From the NCBI GenBank assembly GCA_028712475.1, contig JAQTQB010000009.1:1-64000 (forward strand): DNA of 64,000 nt, in the 5' to 3' direction. Every line of letters begins with the position of its first letter. Position 1 is the first letter of the stretch. The stretch is from Verrucomicrobiales bacterium. Lineage in GTDB: Bacteria; Verrucomicrobiota; Verrucomicrobiia; Limisphaerales; UBA11358. Below the pieces are notes generated by a model. The model saw only the letters and a list, made by a program, of their open reading frames with translations, searched no databases and was not told where the DNA came from. The position numbers were made by a program, and so were the translations under genes. Positions 19,236 to 23,419 of this stretch are shown here, one piece after another.

Positions 19236-19896
19236 GTTTTACTTCCGCAGGAAGTTCCGGCGAAATCGAGCCAAGGCTGACGATGTATTTGATGCCTTCG
19301 GCCACGCTCATGTCCAGTTTCGTCACCTTGTCCTCGGGCACCAGCACCAGGAAGCCGGAGGTCGGGTTCGGCGTCGTGGGGATGAAGACGGCAACGATTT
19401 TCTCCCTGGTTTTTTGCTGCACCTCGGCGCGCTGTTCGCTCGTGAGAAAGCCGACGGAATACATGCCTTCGCGCGGAAATTCCACCAGCACGACCGTCTT
19501 GAATGAACTTTTATTGCCCGCGAACGCCTCGTTGACCTGCTTGATCGCGCCGTAAAATTTATTCAGCAGCGGCACGTTCATCATCGCCGTGTCGAGCCAC
19601 TCGATCATGCGCTTGCCGATGTAGTAGCGCGCCAGCACGCCGACGGTGGAGATCAAGATGACCGCCAGCACCAGCGCCAGCAGGCTCCAATACCAGAACA
19701 TCGCGCCGGACTGCCCGTTCTCATAGACCGCTTTCGGATCAAGGAGATATTTCAGGAAAAAAAGCAGCGTGTCGGTGAAACTGGAAACGGTGCCGAACAG
19801 CCACTTGACCGCCGCAATGGAAATGATCGCGGGCAAGGTGATGGCGAGTCCCGTCAAAAAACTGGCGCGCGAACGGACAAAAAACGATTTCTTCAC
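19228..19896 (-). CDS. DUF502 family membrane protein
   Basis: A 222-aa inner-membrane protein. Two hydrophobic helices are clear: FLTGLAITLPAIISIAAVKW near residues 14-33 and the WYWSLLALVLAVILISTVGV region near 68-87. The soluble C-terminal half includes MMNVPLLNKFYGAIKQVNEA and the VLVEFPREGMYSVGFLTSE motif that is characteristic of DUF502. Its function is unknown in all bacteria. The GTG start overlaps the ybeY stop (GTGA), so the two are translationally coupled. Confidence 0.9.
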   Translation of the reverse strand: MKKSFFVRSRASFLTGLAITLPAIISIAAVKWLFGTVSSFTDTLLFFLKYLLDPKAVYENGQSGAMFWYWSLLALVLAVILISTVGVLARYYIGKRMIEWLDTAMMNVPLLNKFYGAIKQVNEAFAGNKSSFKTVVLVEFPREGMYSVGFLTSEQRAEVQQKTREKIVAVFIPTTPNPTSGFLVLVPEDKVTKLDMSVAEGIKYIVSLGSISPELPAEVKRR

Positions 19897-20378
19897 CCGC
19901 CGATTTTAGAGGCGCGGCCGATTTGTGCGAGTGAAAACCGTTGTGAAAGTATGCGCACCAGCCGGTTCTCCTCGCGTTTCATCCTGCGCCTCGCCGCCAC
20001 GCGCAGGTCATCGTGGCCGAGCAGATGCAAAACGCCGTGGACGATGTAACGCACCACTTCCGATTGCCAGCCGGTCTTAAACTGCCGGGCTTGGAGAAGC
20101 GCCTCGTCCACGCAGACAAACAATTCGCCGTGGATTTGTAATTCCGCACTCCGCACCCCGCATTCCGCATTTGAATGGTCAAACGTGATCACATCCGTCG
20201 AGCCTTCGTGCTGGAGAAAGTTTTCGTTGACCAAGGTCATTTCGCGGGCGCCAACAAGATTGATGCCCAGTTCCGCCTCCTTGATTTTCAACTCCATAAA
20301 CAGCCCGCCTACAATCTGCTTCAGCAGTCGTGCGTTGATTTTCTTCGTCCGCTGGCGGTTGGCGATGACGACGTTCAT
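19893..20378 (-). CDS. ybeY: endoribonuclease YbeY, 16S rRNA maturation
   Basis: YbeY is a single-strand endoribonuclease needed for 16S rRNA 3'-end processing and ribosome quality control. The zinc motif HGVLHLLGHDD supplies the three His ligands. The protein is 161 aa, with an insertion of about 12 residues (NAECGVRSAELQ) between DVITFDHS and IHGELFVCVD, two segments normally almost adjacent. The insertion is encoded by a short repeat and keeps the frame, so the enzyme is probably still active. Start and stop overlap phoH and the DUF502 gene by four bases each. Confidence 0.93.
   Translation of the reverse strand: MNVVIANRQRTKKINARLLKQIVGGLFMELKIKEAELGINLVGAREMTLVNENFLQHEGSTDVITFDHSNAECGVRSAELQIHGELFVCVDEALLQARQFKTGWQSEVVRYIVHGVLHLLGHDDLRVAARRRMKREENRLVRILSQRFSLAQIGRASKIGG
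20141..20171 (+). repeat. mini-repeat inserted in frame inside ybeY
   Basis: On the ybeY strand this is three to four degenerate units of AATGCGGAGTGCGG type. It encodes NAECGVRSAE-like sequence and interrupts a conserved part of YbeY without shifting the frame. Confidence 0.65.
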
Positions 20379-21648: not shown

Positions 21649-22496
21649 AACTTGCATGGATCACCGGTGCGAACGGGCTGATTGGCAATTATCTCGTCCA
21701 AGCCGCGCCGCGATTTGCCCCGGGCTGGCGCGTGCGGGCGTTGACGCGCGATCAGCTTGACCTGCTTGATTTCGCCGCCGTCCGCCGCGAGTTTCAAAAA
21801 GACCAGCCGCAACTCGTCATTCACTGTGCGGCCATCACCGCCGTCGCCGACGCGCAGAAAAATCCTGACCTTGCACGACGCGTGAATGTTGAAGTGACCG
21901 GACTGCTCGCGGAACTGGCGGAGGAAATCCCGTTTGTTTTCTTTTCCACGGATCTGGTTTTTGACGGGCGCAAAGGAAATTATTCCGAGACGGATGCGAC
22001 CAATCCGCTGCACATCTACGGCGAAACGAAACTTGCCGCCGAGGAAATCGTCCTCAAAAATCGGTGTCATCTGGTTGTCCGCACATCCATCAACGGTGGC
22101 GTGTCGCCCACTGGCAATCGCGCGTTCAACGAGCAGTTGCGCCGTTCGTTGCAGCAGGCGGGGCAGGGGATGAGGCTGTTCACGGATGAATTTCGCTGCC
22201 CGATTCCGGCGGTGGAGACGGCGCGGGCGGTCTGGGAACTGGCGCAGAAAAACTGCGCTGGAATCTATCACGTCGCCGGCGCGGAAAAATTATCGCGGCT
22301 GCAAATCGGTCAACTGCTTGTGGAACGCTGGCCGGAAGTGAAAGCGAAAATCGAACCCGGTTCGGCGAAAGATTTTCCCGGCCCGCCGCGCGCACTGGAC
22401 ACTTCGCTGGACATTGCCAAAGTCCAAAAAGCATTGTCCACGCCGCTGCCCGGCCTGCCGGAATGGCTGGCGGCAAATCCAAACGAACTCTTTTGA
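21645..22496 (+). CDS. RmlD-like NAD(P)-dependent sugar-nucleotide reductase
   Basis: A short-chain dehydrogenase-type Rossmann protein of the dTDP-4-dehydrorhamnose reductase family. The nucleotide-binding start is WITGANGLIGNYLV; VIHCAAITAVADAQ, FFSTDLVFDG and the catalytic YGETK (Tyr-x-x-x-Lys) are all present. The protein is 283 aa. The rest of a dTDP-rhamnose pathway is not nearby, so the substrate is uncertain. The ATG at 21645 overlaps the stop of a preceding 30-codon frame; an ATG at 21639 is an alternative. Confidence 0.85.
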   Translation: MKLAWITGANGLIGNYLVQAAPRFAPGWRVRALTRDQLDLLDFAAVRREFQKDQPQLVIHCAAITAVADAQKNPDLARRVNVEVTGLLAELAEEIPFVFFSTDLVFDGRKGNYSETDATNPLHIYGETKLAAEEIVLKNRCHLVVRTSINGGVSPTGNRAFNEQLRRSLQQAGQGMRLFTDEFRCPIPAVETARAVWELAQKNCAGIYHVAGAEKLSRLQIGQLLVERWPEVKAKIEPGSAKDFPGPPRALDTSLDIAKVQKALSTPLPGLPEWLAANPNELF

Positions 22497-22498
22497 AC

Positions 22499-22554
22499 CA
22501 TCAAGGCACAAAGACGCCAGGAAAAGAAAACTTTGTGCCTTGGTGTCCTGGTGG
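22499..22554 (+). repeat. palindromic mini-repeat between the reductase gene and gluQ
   Basis: CAAGGCACAAAG at the left pairs with CTTTGTGCCTTG at the right, with a loop around AAAAGAAAA. The sequence ACCAAGGCACAAAG recurs at 42487-42502, so it is a dispersed repeat family. Confidence 0.7.
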
Positions 22555-22567
22555 TTAATTTTTTCCA

Positions 22568-23419
22568 GTGAATCAAACTTACCGAGGCCGGATTGCACCA
22601 TCGCCGACGGGCTTTTTGCACCTTGGCCACGCGCGGACATTTTGGGTGGCGCAGGAGCGCGCCCGTGCGAACGGCGGCGTTTTGATTTTGCGGAATGAAG
22701 ACCTGGATTCCACGCGCTTCAAAATGGAATTCGTCACGGAAATGTTCGAGGATTTGCGCTGGTTTGGCTTTGAATGGAGCGAAGGCCCGGACTGCGGCGG
22801 GGAGTTTGCGCCTTACAACCAGAGCGAGCGGATGGAGTTTTATCGCGCCGCTTTGGAGAAATTGCGTGCGGGCAATTTCATTTATCCCTGCACCTGTTCG
22901 CGCAAGGACATTCAAGCCGCTGTCGCCGCCCCGCACGCTGAAAATGATGCGGAACCAATTTACCCTGGAACCTGCCGGCAAAATCGCAAATCTGAAATCG
23001 CAAATCGTAAATTCTCCTGGCGTTTCCGCGTTCCTGATGGTGAAACGATTTCTTTCACGGACGGGAATTGTGGCGAACAAAAATTCGTCGCCGGAAAAGA
23101 CTTTGGCGATTTTATCGTGTGGCGCGGTGATGACGTTCCGGCGTATCAACTGGCGTGTGCCGTGGACGACGCGGCGATGCAGATCACCGAGGTGGTGCGC
23201 GGCGCGGATCTGCTCGTCAGCACGGCGCGGCAGATTCTGCTGTATCGCGCGCTCGGCCTGACGCCGCCGGATTTTTTCCACTGTGCGCTCATGCTGGATG
23301 CGAAGGGCGAACGTTTGGCCAAGCGACATGATGCCTTGAGTTTGCGGGAGCTGCGCAGGCAGGGTGCAACGCCGGAATCTTTGCGCCAATCTTTCTTTGC
23401 GCAAATTTCTTCAAAATAA
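22568..23419 (+). CDS. gluQ: glutamyl-Q tRNA(Asp) synthetase
   Basis: GluQ-RS is a truncated glutamyl-tRNA synthetase paralogue that attaches glutamate to queuosine at the wobble position of tRNA-Asp. The GTG start at 22568 gives NQTYRGRIAPSPTGFLHLGH with the class I HIGH-like motif, and the KMSKS-like motif is RLAKRHD near residue 245. The zinc-binding CTC and YPGTCR elements are present, and the anticodon-binding domain is absent, as expected at 283 aa. A repeat-derived segment (NRKSEIANRKF) is inserted in frame after the zinc region. Confidence 0.93.
   Translation: MNQTYRGRIAPSPTGFLHLGHARTFWVAQERARANGGVLILRNEDLDSTRFKMEFVTEMFEDLRWFGFEWSEGPDCGGEFAPYNQSERMEFYRAALEKLRAGNFIYPCTCSRKDIQAAVAAPHAENDAEPIYPGTCRQNRKSEIANRKFSWRFRVPDGETISFTDGNCGEQKFVAGKDFGDFIVWRGDDVPAYQLACAVDDAAMQITEVVRGADLLVSTARQILLYRALGLTPPDFFHCALMLDAKGERLAKRHDALSLRELRRQGATPESLRQSFFAQISSK
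22981..23012 (+). repeat. mini-repeat inserted in frame inside gluQ
   Basis: Two to three units of AATCGCAAATCTGAAATCG type encode RKSEIANRK in the gluQ frame. The sequence lies just after the zinc-binding CR of the enzyme, where GluQ-RS normally goes straight to the SWRFRVPDG strand. Confidence 0.65.

Follow-up and report, generated by a model that had tools for sequence, protein, structure and literature searches.

Period-7 repeat arrays at shared sites, with differing units, in protein-coding genes of a Verrucomicrobiales bacterium and its relatives

The DNA analysed here, a window of 64,000 nt (the whole stretch under study) from a Verrucomicrobiales bacterium, holds two protein-coding genes that each contain a tandem array of heptanucleotides (Table 1). 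The GluQ-RS protein matches Pfam PF00749 (tRNA-synt_1c; E 4e-50), and 1nzj/4a91 (YadB / glutamyl-Q tRNA(Asp) synthetase) are among its PDB matches, with higher scores for GluRS chains. Its array reads AATCGCA, AATCTGA, AATCGCA, AATCGTA and AATT, has no significant inverted partner within 200 nt (p 0.30), and yields the peptide NRKSEIANRKF (codons 22982-23014 of the ORF), in frame directly after YPGTCR. An AlphaFold model of the protein, built on an alignment of 15 sequences, is poor, with a mean pLDDT of 58.9 and values below 50 for residues 103-154. Between the stop codon of an rmlD-like gene and the gluQ start, at 22494-22560, stands a hairpin with heptad-like arms (CAAGGCACAAAGACGCCAGG type) followed by a T run, which looks like a terminator built from the same kind of heptad repeat; hairpins upstream of gluQ in some relatives are, by eye, similar or different.

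Table 1. Genes and period-7 arrays at the locus, in window coordinates
Feature	Positions	Strand	Basis and remarks
GluQ-RS (glutamyl-Q tRNA(Asp) synthetase-like) gene	22568..23419	+	ORF; GTG start; 283 aa
Period-7 array in GluQ-RS, unit AATCnnA, ~4.5 copies, encodes NRKSEIANRK	22981..23012	+	TRF period 7; period scan score 12.5
ybeY gene (endoribonuclease)	19893..20378	-	ORF; Pfam PF02130, E 2e-22
Period-7 array in ybeY, sense unit AATGCGG and variants, inside NAECGVRSAEL	20141..20171	-	TRF period 7; period scan score 14.5

An earlier note on this DNA had described NRKSEIANRKF as a repeat-built insertion in GluQ-RS, and the array that TRF reports there, of period 7 and in frame, bears this out. 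Allowing for three mismatches, the window contains a single copy of the 19-mer given in that note (0.03 expected; one in 3/100 shuffles). Genome-wide, the heptad pattern AATCNNAAATCNNAAATC has 36 overlapping matches in 19 places over 3.4 Mb, compared with 0 for the reversed pattern. The note had further regarded the ybeY repeat as a different, unrelated family. This holds for the unit sequence but not for the kind of repeat, and because both arrays have period 7 and the unit changes between relatives at one site, and so is no stable marker, to speak of two unrelated families is misleading.

Both arrays stand among many of their kind. Scanning 464 kb, made up of the window and a 400-kb sample of the same 3.4-Mb genome, we found 43 period-7 segments versus 0.33 expected (mean of three second-order Markov resamples), from which we extrapolate to about 300 arrays in the whole genome. 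Period 14 gave 30 segments, periods 21, 24 and 28 gave 8, 7 and 0, respectively, and every other period from 4 to 30 gave at most 5. The median array is 31 nt long, with 21 of the 43 rounding to four units and 16 to five (37/43 together). After rotation and complementation the arrays still comprise 30 different units, so there is no single family. With genes called by an ad hoc Markov finder, for which the coding fraction is 0.83, 19/43 arrays lie within genes and 24/43 are intergenic, an over-representation in non-coding DNA given that these ad hoc calls leave only 17% non-coding (p 1e-8). An inverted partner within 200 nt accompanies 12/24 intergenic and 3/19 intragenic arrays (Fisher p 0.026), where both arms of a pair are counted singly and two of the three intragenic arrays are each other's partners. 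Intragenic arrays have 4.8 of the six reading frames open versus 3.8 for intergenic ones (p 0.02), partly by definition, as the sense frame of the former must be open.

The 19 intragenic arrays are hosted by 15 genes, 10 of which (the window's two and eight more) were scanned against Pfam. Nine have a clear family and one has no match. The families are tRNA-synt_1c, YbeY, radical SAM with CofH_C, DEAD/Helicase_C_2, histidine kinase, UDG, AIRS, TsaE and a class I E/Q synthetase with anticodon-binding domains. Separately, a heptad array (GCAATCCGCCATCCTCCATCCTCCATCCTC; L242:2179-2208) was noticed, apparently in frame, near the start of an lpxB-like gene, which we take to be lpxB.

The same sites carry arrays in related genomes. 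For gluQ, 130 loci were supplied, 121 parsed and 92 were distinct, 91 of them with both anchors (L204 is without the left motif); the nearest relatives with names are MAGs of Limisphaerales or Verrucomicrobia, which makes Limisphaerales the probable order of the genome studied here, and nearly all named relatives are MAGs. A period-7 segment (score at least 8) occupies the loop in 39/91 distinct loci, compared with 0/91 for periods 5, 6 and 8-11. When units one mismatch apart are linked, those of the gluQ loop form 11 clusters, the weakest of them marginal, with units such as AATCGGA (L090), AATTCAA (L082), AACTCTC (L089), AACTCCC (L094), ATCTTCC (L105), AGTGGCG (L093) and CACCCGT (L106). Loops free of an array are of similar length, commonly 36-63 nt, with some of up to 111. 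In one gluQ loop (L188), an array of CTCAACC heptads is broken by a separate palindrome (CCCCGTAAAAGGGCGTGGCCCTCACGGGGCTTTACG) and the frame is still kept. Immediately before the conserved start region of GluQ-RS, L089, L094 and L112 also have, by eye, heptad-like arrays, perhaps an N-terminal extension and a second tolerant site.

Three further genes extend this picture. At the ybeY site (30 loci examined of 48 matching genomes, of which L155 gave no anchor), arrays occur in 15/29 loci and fall into six unit clusters, 13 of the 15 being exactly 51 nt; none of the 29 loci has a segment of another period. In tsaE (30 loci of 45 matching genomes), 20/30 carry arrays, mostly at 48 or 57 nt, with units such as ATTTACG, ATTGCCG, GGAAGAT and GCGGAAT. 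In the AIR-synthase-family gene (AIRS; 30 loci of 43), 10/30 do, all at 39 nt, and 16 of the other 20 are 21 or 27 nt. Weak segments of other periods (scores 8-9) were seen in 2/30 tsaE loci (L267 and L264) and in 1/30 AIRS loci (L282, beside its period-7 array).

Between close relatives the array can differ far more than its surroundings. AIRS loci L280 and L282 are 91.8% identical in their flanks and 46.7% in the 30-nt array, with equal site length, and the AIRS gene of our own genome stands at 91.4% to the array-free L285. For gluQ, our own gene and L089 agree in 83.9% of their flanks and have AATC and AACTCTC units, respectively; arrays are wholly different in L087 versus L188 (86.7%) and L088 versus L094 (83.8%), and of L097 and L102, at 89.5%, the first has a weak array and the second has none. 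The unit is unchanged in other pairs (gluQ L220/L226, with 83% in the flanks; AIRS L281/L282 and L283/L287, at about 90%), and L213/L217, the most similar gluQ pair at 96% and free of arrays, have similar loops. On a gluQ tree made by the 'quick' method (15/88 inner branches starred), with 48 loci classed by motif spacing, the unit class changes 26 times versus 26.7 ± 1.8 for shuffled labels, a result that shows fast unit turnover only loosely, since third codon positions are near saturation (observed/shuffled ratio 0.89) and keep little signal. Taken alone, AATC versus CAAC gives 12 changes versus 9.5 shuffled, a number that none of 1000 shuffles exceeded. The presence of an array follows the tree, at 15 changes versus 30.5 ± 2.4 shuffled (0/1000).

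Within an array, the units resemble one another. In 20 gluQ arrays of 39-nt sites, agreement at unit positions 5-6 is 0.496 versus 0.315 ± 0.024 when units are reassigned among species (0/2000), and in AIRS, over the whole unit and for 8 of the 10 arrays (L286 and L306 left out), it is 0.792 versus 0.587 ± 0.031 (0/2000). Being more alike than reassigned units, those of one array appear to be copied from one another, that is, homogenised.

The reading frame is kept in gluQ and ybeY. Site length is a multiple of three in 91/91 distinct gluQ loci (90 by script and L196 by eye) and in 29/29 ybeY loci, and because the anchor search for both genes covered all frames, it would have revealed a break at the site; for tsaE and AIRS the search sees in-frame homology only, and their multiples of three prove nothing. 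Some sites of one gene differ in length by 21 nt, or three heptads: 30 versus 51 nt in ybeY and 36 versus 57 nt in tsaE. The suggestion of the earlier note that inserts are selected for lengths that are multiples of three is upheld as far as the kept frame goes, but not as a rule of insertion: the intragenic repeat segments themselves have a length modulo three of 0 in 6 cases, 1 in 3 and 2 in 10, and the multiple-of-three site lengths are best read as a filter on survivors. Moreover, because 7 modulo 3 is 1, any array of at least three units reads through every codon phase, so that neither phase nor array length modulo three is informative on selection, and the check by phase that the note had suggested fails. 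For the same reason a unit has to be free of stops on the sense strand, or else be broken at the right place. When we simulated the copying of a differing neighbour in gluQ AATC/AATT arrays, an in-frame stop arose at unit 2 in 18/53 cases, compared with 2/43, 4/42 and 2/46 at units 1, 3 and 4. Unit 2 of these arrays often differs from its neighbours (AATCTGA or AATCCGA next to AATCGTA), and when stop triplets are counted in any phase it is not depleted in them (5/20 versus 6, 6 and 9 in the other units).

Beyond what was observed directly, namely the period of seven, the abundance, the shared sites, the differing units at one site, the homogenisation and the kept frame, we consider it probable that the GluQ-RS insert is a member of a genome-wide population of heptad arrays whose units are locally copied and exchanged at tolerant sites, with purifying selection filtering for frame. 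Arrays, usually of four to five units, would occupy sites that tolerate them, such as intergenic spacers and variable protein loops. Neighbouring units would copy each other, which would leave an array fairly homogeneous while its unit sequence shifts, and sometimes an array with units of another family would take the place of the whole. The underlying process may be replication slippage or template switching, in steps of 7 nt. Within genes, purifying selection would pass only net multiple-of-three changes without in-frame stops, such that net-zero rewriting and 21-nt changes of three heptads would pass and single 7-nt steps would fail.

Slippage alone does not make the exchange, as site classes differ by 9 nt (39 versus 48 nt in gluQ; 48 versus 57 nt in tsaE), which is no multiple of 7. 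Nor are the inverted partners of half the intergenic arrays and the narrow size range predicted by slippage alone. The pairs that keep their unit, and a unit 2 that is no poorer in stop triplets than the other units, also weigh against our reading. A bolder reading is that an active, dedicated process creates 7-nt arrays of about four units at fixed chromosomal sites, often in inverted pairs, and then rewrites them with little dependence on the unit sequence; loops of housekeeping proteins would thereby be continually re-diversified, with only three-heptad or net-zero changes passing, and the patchy presence of arrays within a genus would reflect an enzyme that can be gained and lost. We regard this as rather unlikely.

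The main rival to local copying and exchange is homologous recombination between species, by which loop alleles, each with its own heptad family, would be traded and for which no local rewriting would be needed. The AATC class measures 39 nt in 16/17 loci despite their scatter on the gluQ tree, which points to an old allele that was inherited or transferred; a right edge (ACTCGCTTC or CCCGCTTC) is common to part of the CAAC class in distant loci; and class changes on the tree, being as many as for shuffled labels, are also what exchange between species would give. However, pairs of the same class do not have closer flanks, showing an excess third-position identity of 0.028 within five codons (p 0.045) and none beyond, and homogenisation within arrays requires a local process in any case. 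Old transfers could escape this flank test, given the near-saturated third positions, and we therefore keep recombination as the foremost rival, unlikely as it appears to us.

Alternatively, the arrays might be the arms of a small inverted-repeat mobile element, comparable to the Rickettsia palindromic elements, that inserts into genes, with single arrays as remnants. The inverted partners described above fit such an element, as do the in-frame inverted pairs seen by eye in the gluQ loops of L109, L199, L226, L129 and L196. Yet no common element sequence emerges from units that differ from array to array and at one and the same site, array-free gluQ loops of similar length mean that gluQ offers no clean empty site, and the neighbourhood of Y1 transposases is not enriched, so that we think an element of this kind quite improbable. 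A RAYT/Y1 transposase was rejected as the mover: of eight genome matches (seven above the cut-off), three have period-7 segments of score at least 9 nearby, and the two segments of score at least 12 in 26 kb, one of them the in-frame array of the lpxB-like gene, amount to roughly the genome rate. Palindromes such as CCCGCAGTTTCAACTGCGGG flank the Y1-transposase genes in L241-L244 and are, by eye, REP-like rather than heptad. Finally, selection of the heptad form itself for a function such as a G-quadruplex or a protein-binding site, with in-gene copies as tolerated by-products, is very improbable here: Xanthomonas GGGAATC heptads were found to adopt quadruplexes in vitro and likewise prefer four units (PMC4692102), but the four G3 or C3 runs of a quadruplex are present in 0/43 of our arrays, on which ground we reject G-quadruplexes as the general cause here; with 37/43 arrays nonetheless at four to five units, this also argues against quadruplex formation setting array size, and the units seem too varied to be bound by a single protein.

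In cyanobacteria, too, short tandem repeats of heptanucleotides are spread over the genome, as the STRR sequences. Long simple sequence repeats of heptanucleotides were singled out in bacteria in 2007 as exceeding chance, and the origin proposed for them was slippage linked to a polymerase contact of 7 nt (Mrazek 2007, via PMC4679880 and PMC4692102). Our arrays share with them the above-chance 7-nt tandem units and the over-representation in non-coding DNA; they differ in that 19/43 lie in genes, with differing units at orthologous sites and the frame kept. The G-rich heptads of Xanthomonas (GGGAATC) and Nostoc (GGGGA(T/C)T) occur genome-wide, prefer four units, are over-represented in non-coding DNA with 7-11% intragenic, form inverted pairs (70 and 75 cases) and have been linked to G4 (Rehm et al. 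2015; PMC4692102). The preference for about four units, the inverted pairs and the intergenic preference all recur in our arrays; that study, however, follows one G-rich unit type, whereas our arrays have a variety of units and, as quadruplexes are usually counted, no G4 potential. In the P6b stem-loop of the Nostoc trnL intron, heptads of Class I (TDNGATT) or Class II (NNTGAGT) have repeatedly replaced each other (PMC4476775). Replacement of one heptad class by another at the same site is what we see in protein genes, and the reverse complement of Class I, AATCNHA, matches three of the four GluQ-RS units; P6b, however, is a base-paired stem of a group I intron with two classes, whereas the sites described here are coding loops with many.

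The TAACTGA direct repeats of Beggiatoaceae lie mostly just upstream of start codons, with some in ORFs at protein peripheries (MacGregor 2015; PMC4679880). They represent a single fixed unit, unlike the 30 canonical units of our 43 arrays, none of which is TAACTGA. The Rickettsia palindromic elements, at ~150 bp and with recognisable sequence families, are found in frame in many unrelated genes (Ogata et al. 2000, as reviewed in PMC10969869), and the likeness is the in-frame presence in protein genes (here gluQ and ybeY, by an any-frame search, and tsaE and AIRS, by one that sees in-frame homology only), the difference being that our arrays do not share one unit sequence, and nor do relatives at a single site. 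In the full-text literature searched, which includes few subscription journals, we found no paper on orthologous protein-gene sites where one heptad replaces another, nor on heptads in this group.

Within the phylum, the AATC pattern is present in 45/145 genomes drawn (the window's own included), and its distribution is very uneven. Among the 15 species drawn from one genus (g26), overlapping matches number 240, 163, 37 and 7 in four and 0 in the other eleven. A second heptad pattern, CATCGTC (up to two mismatches), has 256 matches in one of the 15 species, 11 in a second and 0-2 in each of the remaining 13. Genomes G176, G076, G140 and G208 thus contrast in heptad abundance with the remaining species of the genus, and this contrast is a possible route to the responsible gene.

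Returning to local copying and exchange under a frame filter, we read the phenomenon as turnover, at fixed sites, of heptanucleotide repeats of a known kind, here in protein-coding loops. For its cause, the earlier heptad papers cited here (PMC4679880; PMC4692102) provide hypotheses and not a settled answer. The orthologous sites in four housekeeping genes form a natural series, with the same place, the same or related length and different units. This makes the cause testable, because the flanks, lengths and intermediates expected under slippage, recombination and a mobile element are not alike. For annotation, repeat DNA emerges as a source of loop variation in a tRNA-synthetase-like protein, an RNase, a tRNA-modification protein and others.
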